Positions 8,936 through 36,719 of a stretch of 64,000 bases of DNA are shown here, piece by piece. The stretch lies in NCBI GenBank assembly GCA_028280405.1, contig JANQLW010000022.1, positions 1 through 64,000 of the forward strand, read 5' to 3'. Numbering within the stretch: the stretch's first letter is position 1; every line of letters starts with the position of its first letter. The position numbers were made by a program, and so were the translations under genes. The stretch is from Bacteroidales bacterium (GTDB lineage Bacteria; Bacteroidota; Bacteroidia; Bacteroidales; GCA-2711565). The notes below the pieces were generated by a model. The model did no database searches. It saw only the letters and a program-made list of their open reading frames with translations, and was not told the origin of the DNA.

Positions 8936-9172
8936 ATGAATATTGAAATCATAACACCCGATAAAACATTATTTGAAGGAGAAGTCAATCTTGTTCAATT
9001 ACCTGGTATTGACGGATCCTTTGAAATTTTGAAAAATCACGCTCCTTTAATTTCAGTTCTGGGAAAAGGGAAGATCAAAGTCAAGATTGATGATAATCAA
9101 ACTGAATTTTTCGAAGTGAATGGGGGCGTTATTGAAGTTTTAAAAAACAAAATTCTGATACTTGCAGAATAA
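8936..9172 (+). CDS. atpC: ATP synthase F1 subunit epsilon, short form
   Basis: A 78-residue epsilon subunit made only of the N-terminal beta-sandwich (MNIEIITPDKTLFEGEV, FEILKNHAPLI and the GGVIEV strand). The C-terminal helical hairpin that inhibits ATP hydrolysis in E. coli is absent. This short form is common in Bacteroidetes, so it is not a truncation, but inhibition by epsilon extension is not expected here. It is joined to atpD by a 2-base gap and followed at once by a strong terminator. Confidence 0.95.
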   Translation: MNIEIITPDKTLFEGEVNLVQLPGIDGSFEILKNHAPLISVLGKGKIKVKIDDNQTEFFEVNGGVIEVLKNKILILAE

Positions 9173-31709: not shown

Positions 31710-32414
31710 TTAACCATTCTTGCTAATCATCTTCAACATATCCTTTTTAAGGATATCTACTTTCTTACCGTCGATATCAATAATCCCATCCTCTTTAAAT
31801 TTCGTTAATACACGGATGGTATTTTCGCGTGAGATGCTCATTAAATCGGCAAGTTCTTGTCTGGATAACATTAAATTAAAGGAGTTATTATAAAAAATAT
31901 TTTCTGAAAAATATAACAGTACATCTGCAAACCGGCCATTTATACGTTTATGGCTTTGATTAATAAAATGGTAATCATTATTCAAACTTTCCTTACAAAC
32001 ATATTTTAATATCTCATGTGCAAACAAACCTTTGTCAACAATAAACTCTTTAAACACATTAATGTCGATATAACAAATTTTTAAATCAACGAGAGCCGCA
32101 TATGAATAATGATTGATTTTATCTCCAAATAAAGAGTGCAGGCCCAAATAAGAATGATGCTTTATAATTTGAATAATATTTGTTTTATTATTCGGAGCAG
32201 ATACATACTCTTTTACGTATCCGGATTTTAAATAAATAATATGGGAAGTCATGGCTCCTGCACGCAGTATTACTTCTCCCCTCTTTACTTCTGATTCCGT
32301 ACAGCTCTGACTTAATAATTCCAGTTGTTCTTCATTTAATACAGATGATGCGCATGATCGATCCATGCAACTTTTACAGTTCTGCCCTTCTCTTACTTTC
32401 AACAAATCTTCCAT
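31710..32414 (-). CDS. Crp/Fnr-family regulator with N-terminal Cys cluster
   Basis: A 234-residue regulator: N-terminal CKSCMDRSC (Cys13, Cys16, Cys21), cyclic-nucleotide-binding-like fold (GEVILRAGAMTSHIIYLKSG), long dimer helix and a C-terminal HTH (LSRQELADLMSISRENTIRV). The Cys spacing is FNR-like and could bind an oxygen-sensitive Fe-S cluster together with another Cys. The recognition helix SRENTIR resembles CRP (R-E-x-x-x-R), which reads TGTG half-sites; a matching ATGTG-N8-CACAT palindrome lies in the intergenic region. It is divergent from the DsrC/DsrMK-like operon and probably controls it in response to oxygen or redox state. Confidence 0.88.
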   Translation of the reverse strand: MEDLLKVREGQNCKSCMDRSCASSVLNEEQLELLSQSCTESEVKRGEVILRAGAMTSHIIYLKSGYVKEYVSAPNNKTNIIQIIKHHSYLGLHSLFGDKINHYSYAALVDLKICYIDINVFKEFIVDKGLFAHEILKYVCKESLNNDYHFINQSHKRINGRFADVLLYFSENIFYNNSFNLMLSRQELADLMSISRENTIRVLTKFKEDGIIDIDGKKVDILKKDMLKMISKNG

Positions 32415-32505: not shown

Positions 32506-32523
32506 ATGTGCTCTATATCACAT
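32506..32523. promoter_or_regulatory. Candidate Crp/Fnr operator
   Basis: ATGTG-N8-CACAT, a perfect 5-bp inverted repeat with the half-site spacing of CRP sites. It is centred about 64 bases before the -7 box start of the dsrC-type operon and about 100 bases from the divergent regulator gene. Confidence 0.55.
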
Positions 32524-32631: not shown

Positions 32632-32964
32632 ATGAAAGTAGCAATAGCATCAAATGACGGAGTGAATATTTCAAAGGATTTTTTCAAATCTAACTCATAC
32701 AAGGTATTCACTTTAGAAATGGGAAAAGTTACAAAAGAAGAATTCAGAAAAATTGAATCCAATACGGAAGAAGAAATTTGCAAAGCTATATCTGATTGCA
32801 ATTTTTTCATCATTAATAATTATGAGCAATTATGTGATGATATTTTTGGCGAAGATGAGGATAAAGCATTTGTTAAAACTGATGAACACTTAGTTACAAA
32901 TATCATTCATGATTTCAGTACAGAACAACAACGCATTGAAGCAAATTACCTTTGCTGCCCTTAA
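32632..32964 (+). CDS. NifX/NafY-like (FeMo-co biosynthesis domain) protein
   Basis: A 110-residue protein beginning MKVAIASNDGVNISKDFF with the ferredoxin-like fold of the 'dinitrogenase iron-molybdenum cofactor biosynthesis' family (NifX/NifB C-terminal/NafY): SYKVFTLEMGKVTKEEFRKI and ISDCNFFIINN. It ends in CCP, an unusual double-Cys tail. Family members bind Fe-S or Fe-Mo clusters; stand-alone versions occur in many anaerobes without nitrogenase. As first gene of the operon it may carry or insert a metal cluster for the DsrK-like subunit; that is inference. Confidence 0.8.
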   Translation: MKVAIASNDGVNISKDFFKSNSYKVFTLEMGKVTKEEFRKIESNTEEEICKAISDCNFFIINNYEQLCDDIFGEDEDKAFVKTDEHLVTNIIHDFSTEQQRIEANYLCCP

Positions 32965-32989
32965 TACAGATATAAATATTAATGCAAAG

Positions 32990-33235
32990 ATGAAAGATTA
33001 TTATTGTCCGAATTTCGAGGGTTGTCAATTATTAAACACCAATCAGGTAATTGACGACCAGAAGCAGAAAGATATATACAGGGCAGAATATTGTATTAAT
33101 CCGGAATTAACATGGAAAAATTGTAAGCGCTACCAAACCCGTGTGGCCCTTAATTTTTGCCCTGATTTCGTATTACCTGATACGAAGCTAAGCCCGGCAG
33201 AAATTATGAACAAATACGACGAAGAATTTATTTAA
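32990..33235 (+). CDS. Small cysteine-rich protein, unknown
   Basis: An 81-residue protein starting at the ATG at 32990. An open frame extends upstream but overlaps the preceding gene, and MKDYYCPNFEGC is a better beginning. Cys occur in YYCPNFEGC, EYC, KNC and NFC, giving five residues with spacing unlike ferredoxins or rubredoxins that I know. It could bind a metal or cluster or serve as a thiol carrier. It sits between the NifX-like and dsrC genes with short gaps, so it is probably part of the same functional unit. I do not recognise the family. Confidence 0.65.
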   Translation: MKDYYCPNFEGCQLLNTNQVIDDQKQKDIYRAEYCINPELTWKNCKRYQTRVALNFCPDFVLPDTKLSPAEIMNKYDEEFI

Positions 33236-33256
33236 TAACACTTAAAAACAAATAAA

Positions 33257-33574
33257 ATGGCAACGATTGAATTAGAAGAAATGGTTTTGGAAGTTGATGG
33301 TGATGGTTTCTTAACTCAACCTGAAATCTGGACCGAAGACATTGCAAAATCAATAGCAGAAATTGATGGAATCACAGAATTAACAAAAAAGCATTGGGCA
33401 ATTATTAATGTAATCAGAAAAAACTACGAGGAAAAAGGTATGGCCCCAATGATCAGGGTTATTTGCCAGGAAACCGGAGTTAGGTTACGTGAGATCTATG
33501 AATTATTCCCATTAGGGCCTGCTCGCGGTGCTTGCCGTATAGCTGGATTACCAAAACCAGATGGTTGTGTTTAA
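33257..33574 (+). CDS. dsrC: DsrC/TusE-family sulfur carrier with both C-terminal Cys
   Basis: A 105-residue DsrC. The C-terminal arm reads GPARGACRIAGLPKPDGCV, with Cys93 (CysB) and the penultimate Cys104 (CysA) eleven residues apart. True DsrC proteins have both; TusE proteins of tRNA thiolation keep only CysA. In sulfite reducers DsrC carries sulfur as a trisulfide between DsrAB and the DsrMKJOP complex. Here DsrM-like and DsrK-like genes follow, but no dsrAB, dsrJOP, dsrEFH or tusA is visible. The conserved core (KKHWAIINVIRKNYEEKGMAP, VRLREIYELFPLGP) is intact. Confidence 0.95.
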   Translation: MATIELEEMVLEVDGDGFLTQPEIWTEDIAKSIAEIDGITELTKKHWAIINVIRKNYEEKGMAPMIRVICQETGVRLREIYELFPLGPARGACRIAGLPKPDGCV

Positions 33575-33589
33575 TAAATCATAATTATT

Positions 33590-34222
33590 ATGTTTTGGTA
33601 CCATTGGATGATGATTGTCTCCTTGGCAATCAGCATGCTTGCCTGTCTGGCACATATCATTAAATTGATCAGATTAGGCAAGCCAATCGATTACTCTCAA
33701 AAGGCCGGAGATATTTCCTCTGCAATAAAATATTCATTCACAAAAGCAATGAGCCCGGCTAAAAAAGAATCTGCATATTTACATTTACCAACCTATACAG
33801 CGGGTATTATTTATCATCTGGGAACTTTTCTTTCCATTTTTCTGTTTTTCATGATAATTCTTGACCTTCATGAATTATTAAATACTGTATTGGATATTGT
33901 AATCATTGGATTTTTAGCTTTATCAACGATCTCCGGGATTGGAATTCTCATCAAAAGATTAAGTAAAAAGACTTTGAAAGCTCTTTCTAATCCTGATGAT
34001 TACATTTCAAATATTTTGGTAAACCTGTATCAACTAGCTACAGCATATGTTTTATTTGACTCTTCAGCTATTGTTATATATACAATGATTACCTCTGCTT
34101 TATTATTGTATTTACCACTGGGAAAACTCAAACATGCCTTTTATTTTTTCGCTGCCAGATACCATTTAGGGTATTTCTATGGCTGGAGAAATGTATGGCC
34201 TATTTCAAATCATAAAAACTAA
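33590..34222 (+). CDS. DsrM/HdrE-like membrane cytochrome b subunit
   Basis: A 210-residue protein with about five membrane helices (residues roughly 5-25, 65-90, 97-118, 140-165, 170-185). Candidate heme b ligands are His in CLAHIIKLIRLGKPID and HLGTFLSIFLFF, as in NarI/DsrM/HdrE proteins; the C-terminal RYHLGYFYGWRNVWP is typical of this group. It should pass electrons between the menaquinone pool and the soluble Fe-S subunit whose gene starts 5 bases downstream. The assignment is to the family; DsrM, TmcC and HdrE cannot be told apart by eye. Confidence 0.85.
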   Translation: MFWYHWMMIVSLAISMLACLAHIIKLIRLGKPIDYSQKAGDISSAIKYSFTKAMSPAKKESAYLHLPTYTAGIIYHLGTFLSIFLFFMIILDLHELLNTVLDIVIIGFLALSTISGIGILIKRLSKKTLKALSNPDDYISNILVNLYQLATAYVLFDSSAIVIYTMITSALLLYLPLGKLKHAFYFFAARYHLGYFYGWRNVWPISNHKN

Positions 34223-34227
34223 GTATA

Positions 34228-35535
34228 ATGGGAGTATTAACAGAAGAGATTAAACAAAGGGGTTTAGAAGTTTTAAGCTCTCATGGCAATAGTAAATTAT
34301 TAACGCATTTAAATAGTTGTGTCCATTGTGGACTCTGTTCTAATAGTTGTGTTTATTATAAAGTAGATGCCGACGAACACTACGTTCCGGCCAAGAAGGT
34401 AGATATCGTCGCATCTATTTATCGCAGGTACAACACATTTCTGGGGAAAACTTTACCTAAACTAACCAATGCACGTGATCTGGACGAAACTTCAATCGAT
34501 GAATTGGTAGATTTACTATTTGGTTCATGCACTATGTGTGGAAGATGTACATTGCATTGCTCTATAGGAGTGGATATAGGATATGTAGTTCGTAAAGGAA
34601 GAGAAATGCTTTCAGCTATGGGCTATGTTCCTAAAACCTTACAGGCTACAGTAGATGCTGCTATAGAAACCGGCAACAATATGAGTATTTCTACAGAAGA
34701 GTTCGTAGATACCCTTAAATGGTTGGAAGATGATCTTCAATATGAATTGGATGACGAAAATGCGAACATTCCTTTAAATGAAAAGAGTAAAAATGTTATG
34801 TACACTTTAAATCCAAGAGAACCCAAATTTTTCCCGCTTTCCATTTCAGCCATGGCTAAGGTATTTTATGCAGCCAAAGAAAGCTGGACCCTATCCACCG
34901 AAATGTACGATGTAACAAACTATGCATTTTTCTCAGGAAATATGGATGAAGCCAATATTATTGCCCAACGCATGGATACTGAAATGAAAAACCTGGATGC
35001 TACCAAATGTGTGCTTGCTGAATGCGGGCATGGTTCCAGGGCCTATAAATGGGAAGGGCCTAACTATTTAGGCCGGAAGCTTCCTTACGAAGTAACAACA
35101 TCTGTAGAATTATTGGCACAATATATACGTGATGGTCGTATCAAACTGGATCCGGAACGATTATCTGAAGTGGTAACTCTACACGATCCGTGTAACCTGG
35201 CTCGTTCAGGAGGAGTGATTGAAGAGCAAAGGTATATTTTAAGTCATGTGACAAAAAACTTTGTAGAAATGACCCCTCACGGGGTAGATAATTTTTGCTG
35301 TGGTGGTGGCGGTGGCCAATTAGCCATGAGTGAGTATAATGAACGCCGTATGAAAATTGCAAAGGTTAAAGCAGATCAGATTAAAAGTACCGGAGCAAGC
35401 ATCGTTGCGACTCCTTGCCATAACTGTGTAGATCAGCTAACTCAAATAGATCAACACTATAAATTGGGAGTAAAGATTATGACTTTGGCAGAATTGGTAG
35501 CCGATGCTTTAGTATTAGATGAAGAAAAGAAATAA
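34228..35535 (+). CDS. DsrK/HdrD-like Fe-S catalytic subunit
   Basis: A 435-residue cytoplasmic-side subunit. Two ferredoxin-type [4Fe-4S] motifs are visible (CVHCGLCSNSC and CTMCGRCTLHC). The second CCG domain is complete (DPCNLARSGG, then NFCCGGGGG, then CHNC), which builds the non-cubane catalytic [4Fe-4S] cluster of HdrB/D and DsrK. The first CCG domain is degenerate (CVLAECGHG). This pattern matches DsrK and TmcB, whose partners are the cytochrome b subunit and DsrC. It would reduce a DsrC disulfide/trisulfide or oxidise DsrC thiols. Direction cannot be told from sequence. Confidence 0.9.
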   Translation: MGVLTEEIKQRGLEVLSSHGNSKLLTHLNSCVHCGLCSNSCVYYKVDADEHYVPAKKVDIVASIYRRYNTFLGKTLPKLTNARDLDETSIDELVDLLFGSCTMCGRCTLHCSIGVDIGYVVRKGREMLSAMGYVPKTLQATVDAAIETGNNMSISTEEFVDTLKWLEDDLQYELDDENANIPLNEKSKNVMYTLNPREPKFFPLSISAMAKVFYAAKESWTLSTEMYDVTNYAFFSGNMDEANIIAQRMDTEMKNLDATKCVLAECGHGSRAYKWEGPNYLGRKLPYEVTTSVELLAQYIRDGRIKLDPERLSEVVTLHDPCNLARSGGVIEEQRYILSHVTKNFVEMTPHGVDNFCCGGGGGQLAMSEYNERRMKIAKVKADQIKSTGASIVATPCHNCVDQLTQIDQHYKLGVKIMTLAELVADALVLDEEKK

Positions 35536-35558
35536 GAACAATTAAGAATTAAAAAGAA

Positions 35559-36719
35559 ATGAGTAAACAAATATATTTAGATAATTCAGCAACTACTTTT
35601 CCAAAACCTGATGAGGTTTATAAATTCATGGATCATTTCTATCGTAATAATGGAGTAAGCCCGGGCAGATCAGGGTTTGATGCAGCGATTGCAGCAGAAG
35701 AAGTCGTGATGAGTACACGTAAAATGTTAGTTGAATTATTTAATGGAGATGATCCCGATCGACTAACCTTCAGTTATAACGCCAGCGACTCATTAAATAT
35801 GATTATTCAGGGCTTATCTGAAAAAGGGGATCATGTAATCACAACCATGTTAGAACATAACTCTGTATTGAGACCTTTGTACCATTTAGAGCAAGATCAA
35901 ACCATTGAAGTCACTTATGTTCCGTTTGATGAATATGGGTATGTGAGTCCTGAAGATGTTAAACAGGCGATACGTGATAATACCAAAATGGTAATTGTCA
36001 ATCATAGTTCAAATATTATCGGAACTGTTCAACCTATTGAAGAAATAGGTAGAATTTGCAAAGAAGCAGGAGTTTATTTTATTGTTGATGCCAGTCAGAG
36101 TGCTGGGATCATCCCCATAGACATCAAAAAAATGAATATAGATGTCGTAGTATTTACGGGACATAAGTGCTTAATGGGGCCTACCGGAATCGGAGGTTCT
36201 TATGTAAAAGAAGGCGTAAACATAAAAGGAACCCGTTTTGGGGGAACCGGAGTACGTTCGGCACAAAAAACCCATCTTGAGGAATTCCCTTATCGCTTGG
36301 AATGTGGAACCTTGAATCTTTTAGGTGTAGCTGGATTAAATGCCGGAATTAAATGGGTAATGAAACAAGGTATTGAAAACATCCATGAAAAGGAGATCAA
36401 GCTTTGGGATCGTTTAAGAAAAGGCTTACAGCAAATTGAAGGAGTAACCACTTACTGTGCACACGATACCCATAATCAGAATGCGGTATTAAGTTTTAAT
36501 ATCAAAGGATTTATTGCCGGAGATGTAGGCATGATGCTGGACGTGGATTATAATATAGCCAGTCGTACGGGATTACAATGTGCCCCACTTGTACATGAAA
36601 GAATTGGTACTGATGAATTACACGGAACCGTTCGTTTAAGTGCAGGACCATTCACTACCGAACAAGAGATAGATGCTGCGATTGAAGCCGTGAAAGAAAT
36701 TGCATCTATCCCAAGATAA
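35559..36719 (+). CDS. Class V aminotransferase, cysteine desulfurase family
   Basis: A 386-residue PLP enzyme beginning IYLDNSATTFPKPDEV. The PLP lysine is in VVFTGHKCLMGPTGIGG and the active-site loop Cys region is LQCAPLVHERIG, as in the short 'cysteine desulfurase family protein' clade (TIGR01977 type) that is distinct from IscS, NifS and SufS. The clade's activity is not established; it may be a cysteine desulfurase or selenocysteine lyase. It follows the DsrK-like gene by 23 bases and is the last gene of the operon, so it could supply sulfur to DsrC. Confidence 0.88.
   Translation: MSKQIYLDNSATTFPKPDEVYKFMDHFYRNNGVSPGRSGFDAAIAAEEVVMSTRKMLVELFNGDDPDRLTFSYNASDSLNMIIQGLSEKGDHVITTMLEHNSVLRPLYHLEQDQTIEVTYVPFDEYGYVSPEDVKQAIRDNTKMVIVNHSSNIIGTVQPIEEIGRICKEAGVYFIVDASQSAGIIPIDIKKMNIDVVVFTGHKCLMGPTGIGGSYVKEGVNIKGTRFGGTGVRSAQKTHLEEFPYRLECGTLNLLGVAGLNAGIKWVMKQGIENIHEKEIKLWDRLRKGLQQIEGVTTYCAHDTHNQNAVLSFNIKGFIAGDVGMMLDVDYNIASRTGLQCAPLVHERIGTDELHGTVRLSAGPFTTEQEIDAAIEAVKEIASIPR

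Follow-up and report, generated by a model that had tools for sequence, protein, structure and literature searches.

Described DsrC-linked systems and an operon of Bacteroidales

Among the systems closest to the one considered here, a six-gene operon encoding a DsrC protein in the 64,000-nucleotide window formed by positions 1–64,000 of contig JANQLW010000022.1 (Bacteroidales bacterium, assembly GCA_028280405.1), are those of the DsrC–DsrMK(JOP) type, known from dissimilatory sulfite/sulfate reduction. As laid out in two earlier studies, DsrC takes up sulfur on its C-terminal cysteines, and the resulting trisulfide or disulfide is reduced by DsrK-type proteins (PMC10504309; PMC8076601). DsrC and its membrane reductase are usually read as markers of sulfite/sulfate respiration or of reverse-Dsr sulfur oxidation. 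A previous study briefly mentions DsrK or DsrM in a small number of assemblies where DsrAB was not found, namely seven in a basal DsrK clade and, for DsrM, some Chloroflexi (Neukirchen et al. 2023, PMC10504309); these are cases of DsrMK proper, unlike the pair described below. The HmcE/HmcF and TmcC/TmcB pairs, which belong to the Hmc and Tmc complexes of sulfate reducers, are of the same wider kind as DsrMK. A different type of system is the sulfur relay fed by a cysteine desulfurase, IscS–TusA–TusBCD–TusE, of Escherichia coli.

The operon (32632–36719; Table 1) comprises six tightly spaced plus-strand open reading frames (ORFs), in line with the six close same-strand genes reported in an earlier note made from the sequence of the window. 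In order, they encode two small proteins (genes 1 and 2), DsrC, a predicted membrane cytochrome b subunit (M), an Fe-S subunit (K) and a cysteine desulfurase (CSD). Like the DsrC–DsrMK(JOP) systems, it combines a two-Cys DsrC, closest to that of DsrAB-linked systems, with a predicted b-type cytochrome of the membrane and a protein bearing CCG and 4Fe-4S sites; it differs in that the operon genomes searched lack DsrAB or any siroheme enzyme and in that a desulfurase is part of the operon. With the TusA/TusE relays it has in common a desulfurase and a DsrC-family protein; however, here DsrC keeps both cysteines and is accompanied by a quinone-linked pair resembling a disulfide reductase, and TusBCD is missing from the operon. 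Neukirchen et al. do not use the string "bacteroid" in their text, and the passages of that paper do not mention a DsrC–M–K–CSD operon (PMC10504309). Likewise, we found neither a report of DsrC in Butyricimonas nor a description of the operon as a DsrC/DsrMK-like system without DsrAB in Bacteroidota in the open-access literature, covered mostly at the level of titles and abstracts. As far as these sources go, DsrK or DsrM without DsrAB is known, and the DsrC–M–K–CSD operon is new.

Conservation of the operon and absence of siroheme sulfite reductases

Our scan of GTDB genome contigs recovered 155 loci encoding a close relative of this DsrC, the best 80 of which were taken for locus analysis. 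By title, these best 80 belong to Bacteroidales, other Bacteroidetes and Ignavibacteria, bar two contigs, one titled "bacterium" and one Alphaproteobacteria (L116). The latter has an operon and neighbor set equal to those of the Bacteroidales locus L108 and is probably mislabelled. Counting only loci with enough contig for the test, the gene after DsrC is M in 77/77, K comes next in 71/74, and K is followed by CSD in 60/64; of the four loci that depart from this last rule, at least one (L097) does so through an ORF overlapping the end of K. Gene 2 precedes DsrC in 44 of the 77 testable loci, and the order gene 2–DsrC–M–K–CSD recurs in relatives while the flanking genes change and are unrelated. 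Five genomes (three loci and the relatives G400 and G511) have K away from DsrC and M; all of them keep a 57–63% identical K elsewhere, and a loss of K in gut lineages was accordingly rejected. Dozens of anaerobic Bacteroidota share the operon, cultured Butyricimonas among them. Hence, the gene order that the earlier note had proposed to survey is strongly conserved among relatives and GTDB loci alike, and the module, which it had thought unusual for a Bacteroidota genome, is instead a regular feature of anaerobic Bacteroidota and Ignavibacteria.

The same note had seen no dsrAB in the window, and this extends to the whole host assembly (3.87 Mb, 95% complete), where a search that covered siroheme enzymes found no NIR_SIR (siroheme sulfite/nitrite reductase) domain. 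Of 14 control genomes, 11 yielded siroheme enzymes in this search. Among 149 relatives, the domain is absent from all 18 operon-bearing genomes, as against 10 of the 131 others with it, and 25 named operon genomes, among them two Butyricimonas and the complete genome of Bacteroidales bacterium CF, equally lack it; the two sets seem to overlap in part (L094, L125 and L158 match contigs of G395, G487 and G480 in length). What we claim is this absence, and not a significant avoidance of sulfite reductases (0/18 versus 10/131, p = 0.61). DsrJOP genes are missing from the operon, no genome-wide search for them having been made.

The window also lacks TusA and DsrEFH, as noted earlier, yet TusA, a DsrE2 protein and a second, one-Cys DsrC are encoded elsewhere in the host genome, away from the operon. 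One cluster of the host (L061, C74:70000-85000) contains a PsrABC-like molybdenum enzyme, two YeeE/YedE, two rhodanese-like proteins, an FNR-like regulator, an SQR-like protein, DUF1641, a one-Cys DsrC and DsrE2; these identities were read from the sequence, with DsrE2 confirmed by profile and the DsrE2 and DUF1641 homologues of L144 by Pfam. It is likely to be a sulfane-sulfur module unlinked to the operon of the window. A one-Cys DsrC/DsrE2 set lies directly upstream of the operon in L123, L144 and L150, with DUF1641 in L123 and L144, and in L101 the operon continues downstream with DsrE2, TusA, FlpD and an HdrA-like protein. As a general rule, DsrE2 was rejected as an obligate partner: it occurs in 7/18 operon-bearing and 61/131 other genomes, which is not beyond chance.

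Constituents of the operon

The DsrC passes both PF04358 (118.6 bits, cut-off 24.9) and TIGR03342 (101.1 bits, cut-off 53.5). Both cysteines of its C-terminal CX10C arm, CysA and CysB (Cys93 and Cys104), are retained along with Cys70 in 81/81 operon copies, confirming the two-Cys DsrC of the initial reading; CysA is found in 0/31 of the other (one-Cys) Bacteroidota DsrC-family proteins compared. Its nearest PDB chain is 2xsj_C, which we take to be a DsrC-family chain from a sulfate reducer; the match to the sulfurtransferase chain 7syb is far weaker. In a tree with a short alignment of few columns and flagged long branches, the operon copies form one group (SH-aLRT 99) on the side of DsrC from sulfate reducers, Chlorobia-type genomes (f196) and f211 genomes, set apart from the one-Cys proteins (support 99). 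We rejected Cys70 as a signature of the operon because the DsrC of L196 and L197 share a Cys there. These two loci (in G839 and G849) have a different DsrC–M–K set with a K of ~540 residues; in G839 (L196) it adjoins DsrN-, DsrL- and DsrB-like genes, and the genome has a DsrMKJOP-type copy (L195) besides.

For M, originally called DsrM-like, this label does not hold: it has no match to the DsrM profile and only weak ones to HmcE (26.4 bits, cut-off 275) and TmcC (20.4 bits, cut-off 240), both below cut-off. The same is seen in 36 homologues, where HmcE matches 36/36, TmcC 26/36 and DsrM, weakly, 1/36. No sequence relatives of M were found in the PDB, and the top eight fold matches of its AlphaFold model (pLDDT 90) are all NarI chains, with probabilities of 0.99–1.00 but TM-scores of 0.44–0.53 and E-values of 0.06–0.2. 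His76 and His182, a pair of the axial type, are present in 77/77 sequences, His65 in 67/77 and His192 in 65/77. As for proof of a heme pair from paired loss of His65 and His192, none was found, the losses being mutually exclusive.

The case of K is divided: the single complete CCG site seen at the outset stands, together with two 4Fe-4S sites, whereas the label DsrK-like has to be weakened, as K scores 240.6 bits against DsrK (cut-off 400) and is nearer to HmcF (303.5 bits, cut-off 750) and TmcB (291.3 bits, cut-off 735), all below cut-off; Chlorobia-type DsrK score ~700 or more against the DsrK model. In 68/68 sequences, 14 of its 15 cysteines are invariant, comprising those of the 4Fe-4S sites (Cys31/34/37/41 and Cys101/104/107/111), Cys266 and the CCG set (Cys322/357/358/397/400). 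The operon K form one group in the tree (support 90), apart from and 26–31% identical to reference DsrK; the tree reference is DsrK, and the placement relative to HmcF and TmcB is by profile scores only. At 435 residues K lacks the N-terminal extension of Chlorobia-type DsrK (~549 residues), and M is 210 residues long against ~331 in DsrM. Since K is below the DsrK cut-off and the pair is nearer to HmcEF/TmcCB by profile, M and K are, judged by sequence, members of the wider DsrMK/HmcEF/TmcCB kind and not DsrMK proper. The Hmc and Tmc pairs give the top family scores and are of similar size, but these scores are far under both cut-offs, and instead of a multihaem cytochrome c or other Hmc/Tmc subunits the operon has DsrC and a desulfurase. 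Close upstream of the operon in another locus (L138:2015-3808) lies a gene for a 597-residue fusion of a NarI-like membrane part and an HdrD-like part with two CCG.

The CSD is by sequence, as first recognized, a class V aminotransferase of the cysteine desulfurase type: it passes TIGR01977 (461 bits, cut-off 377), and its Lys203 and Cys341 are kept in 60/60. Against the selenocysteine lyase SclA it reaches 333 bits, where the cut-off is 525. It is probably not the housekeeping enzyme, because the SufS of the host is encoded apart from it, in a suf-like locus. Elsewhere in the host (L203/L207, C91, ~49–51 kb), genes for YeeE/YedE, TusA, a TIGR01977-like desulfurase, a DUF3343-like small protein and a radical-SAM-like protein stand in a row; this desulfurase shares 40% identity with the CSD of the operon. 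A second type of class V aminotransferase, of ~490 residues and with the motif GGC(L/A)CAGTYGHYLL (L101:4445-5965; L071; L204:1351-2808, in C88 of the host), is encoded upstream of DsrC in some relatives and is unlinked in the host.

Proposed function and alternatives

Combining these sequence features with the biochemistry of DsrC and DsrMK, we tentatively favor, at a little short of an even chance, a respiratory-type operon that would connect the quinone pool to a DsrC loaded by a cysteine desulfurase and not to sulfite. This is essentially the module of the earlier note, a minimal DsrC/MK set linked to quinone and independent of sulfite reductase, which draws support from the absence of NIR_SIR, the conserved gene order and the desulfurase in the operon. 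The two-Cys DsrC would alternate between a dithiol and a disulfide (or trisulfide). The CSD, converting cysteine to alanine, would load it with sulfane sulfur, or else a sulfane sulfur donor could do so via TusA/DsrE2; the second cysteine of DsrC would then displace H2S, leaving a disulfide. By analogy with DsrC/DsrMK, the CCG cluster of K would return this disulfide to the dithiol, using menaquinol electrons that pass through the b hemes of M. The net reaction would be cysteine (or a sulfane sulfur donor) + quinol to H2S + alanine + quinone. We infer the CSD to be the most likely donor because there is no sulfite reductase and because it is the commonest fixed neighbor after M and K; the reductive direction of MK is likewise inferred. 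We consider it less likely than not that an HmcEF/TmcCB-like pair uses quinol to reduce DsrC-bound sulfur, whether cysteine-derived or sulfane, to H2S independently of any sulfite reductase, as an undescribed means of anaerobic electron disposal in Bacteroidota. Such a process would be a plausible new source of H2S and of quinone turnover in sediments, digesters and guts. Matches to dsrC or dsrK alone should not count as evidence of sulfite reduction, and the role of DsrC without DsrAB becomes directly testable in isolates.

Several observations weigh against the desulfurase-fed reading. The CSD is not universal: L157 has none beside K, it is inverted in L076 and L077, and the K copies of the split loci have none within ~1.5 kb. 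With K and M under every equivalog cut-off, orthology does not secure a DsrK activity, and the second heme pair of M is complete in 55/77 sequences and incomplete in 22/77. Further, DsrE2 and the operon are found together no more often than chance would give, and the sulfite reductase search covers siroheme enzymes, the non-siroheme MccA not having been searched for.

The first rival, retained because some genomes have related genes next to the operon, is a reduction or detoxification of sulfane sulfur (S0, polysulfide, thiosulfate), in which rhodanese/TusA/DsrE2 would pass sulfur to DsrC, MK would reduce it with quinol and the CSD would be an auxiliary feeder. The C74 cluster of the host, the sets upstream in L123, L144 and L150 and the DsrE2–TusA genes downstream in L101 would all fit it; nevertheless we judge it unlikely, as DsrE2 is not enriched in operon genomes and most operon loci are devoid of such genes nearby while nearly always possessing a CSD. 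The HdrA-like and FlpD genes after the operon in L101 would instead suit a DsrC that does no more than carry electrons by thiol/disulfide cycling, as a protein heterodisulfide that links a soluble oxidoreductase to the quinone pool; any sulfur transfer would then be a side effect. Indeed, the DsrC of D. vulgaris supports fermentative growth and interacts with FlxABCD–HdrABC (Ferreira et al. 2023, as cited in PMC10920352). Yet the commonest fixed neighbor is a desulfurase, and no HdrB partner was found in the host, its only other CCG proteins being one that resembles LutA and, next to EtfAB, an HdrED-like fusion, making this alternative distinctly improbable. An oxidative direction, wherein MK would oxidize the DsrC dithiol or persulfide and deliver electrons of sulfide to the quinone pool, has a precedent in the DsrMK-type modules of sulfur oxidizers (PMC10504309). 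We rate its chances lower still: in the absence of DsrAB a path to sulfite is missing, the host encodes an SQR-like protein separately and a desulfurase puts sulfur in rather than taking it out.

The score of the CSD against SclA and the weak NifX likeness of gene 1 could be taken to point to sulfur/selenium trafficking or Fe-S maturation, where the CSD would be a selenocysteine lyase or would donate sulfur for Fe-S clusters, and MK would provide electrons for the conversion of persulfide to sulfide. But the score is under the SclA cut-off, gene 1 is found in few loci and the genome has a suf-like locus, which renders this very unlikely. Slighter yet is the chance of a non-siroheme, MccA-type sulfite reduction using the operon DsrC, as MccA is not known to use DsrC and the operon has no multihaem gene, albeit that no genome-wide search for MccA was made. 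What speaks for it is that DsrC and MK elsewhere belong to sulfite reduction (PMC10504309).

Small proteins and regulation

Table 1. Features of the operon and of the region upstream of it (positions in the window)
Feature	Position	Strand	Basis
FNR/CRP-family regulator	31710..32414	-	cNMP_binding + HTH_Crp_2 domains; FNR match weak
TGTGCTCTATATCACA palindrome, putative operator of FNR-like regulator	32507..32522	.	TGTG-N8-CACA shared with relatives
Gene 1, 110 residues, distantly NifX/PF02579-like	32632..32964	+	sub-cut-off match of a longer homologue
Gene 2, 81 residues, five invariant Cys	32990..33235	+	start by comparison with relatives
Two-Cys DsrC (Cys93, Cys104, plus invariant Cys70)	33257..33574	+	PF04358, TIGR03342, tree
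M, putative NarI-fold membrane cytochrome b subunit, HmcE/TmcC-like	33590..34222	+	profiles, predicted model
K, DsrK/HmcF/TmcB-type, two 4Fe-4S sites + one complete CCG site	34228..35535	+	profiles, Cys conservation
CSD, class V pyridoxal phosphate (PLP) cysteine desulfurase, catalytic Cys341, PLP Lys203	35559..36719	+	TIGR01977

Gene 1, described as NifX-like in the earlier note, retains this label as a weak resemblance only: the window protein itself has no match in Pfam or NCBIfam, and a longer homologue in L101 reaches 22.8 bits against PF02579, under the cut-off of 26.3. Its C-terminus reads CCP, or CCCP in relatives, and it clusters with genes found in a few of the 80 named loci. The small Cys-rich gene 2 is borne out, with five cysteines invariant in 36 sequences in the pattern C-x-N-x3-C...C...C-x-R...C-P-D-F. 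Its longest ORF begins at 32909, yet relatives are ~81 residues long with a counterpart start at 32990, which is most likely the true start; there is therefore no overlap with gene 1. We found no Pfam family for it and, despite a confident predicted structure (pLDDT 90.6), no fold match in the PDB.

The divergent FNR/CRP-family regulator is separated from gene 1 by an intergenic stretch of 217 bases. It has an N-terminal C-x2-C-x4-C group (Cys13/16/21) plus Cys114, and a regulator of this family also faces away from the operon in L101, L107, L123, L138, L144, L150 and others. The stretch between regulator and operon contains a TGTG-N8-CACA palindrome in the window as well as in L101, L107, L123, L138 and L144. 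The palindrome may be the operator of this FNR-like regulator, which probably turns the operon on under anaerobiosis. The canonical FNR box, TTGAY-N4-RTCAA, was considered as the operator and rejected, as none occurs upstream of the operon, where TGTG-N8-CACA is found instead. The sole exact palindrome of the FNR-box type in the window, a perfect TTGAT-N4-ATCAA, lies at 9087–9100.

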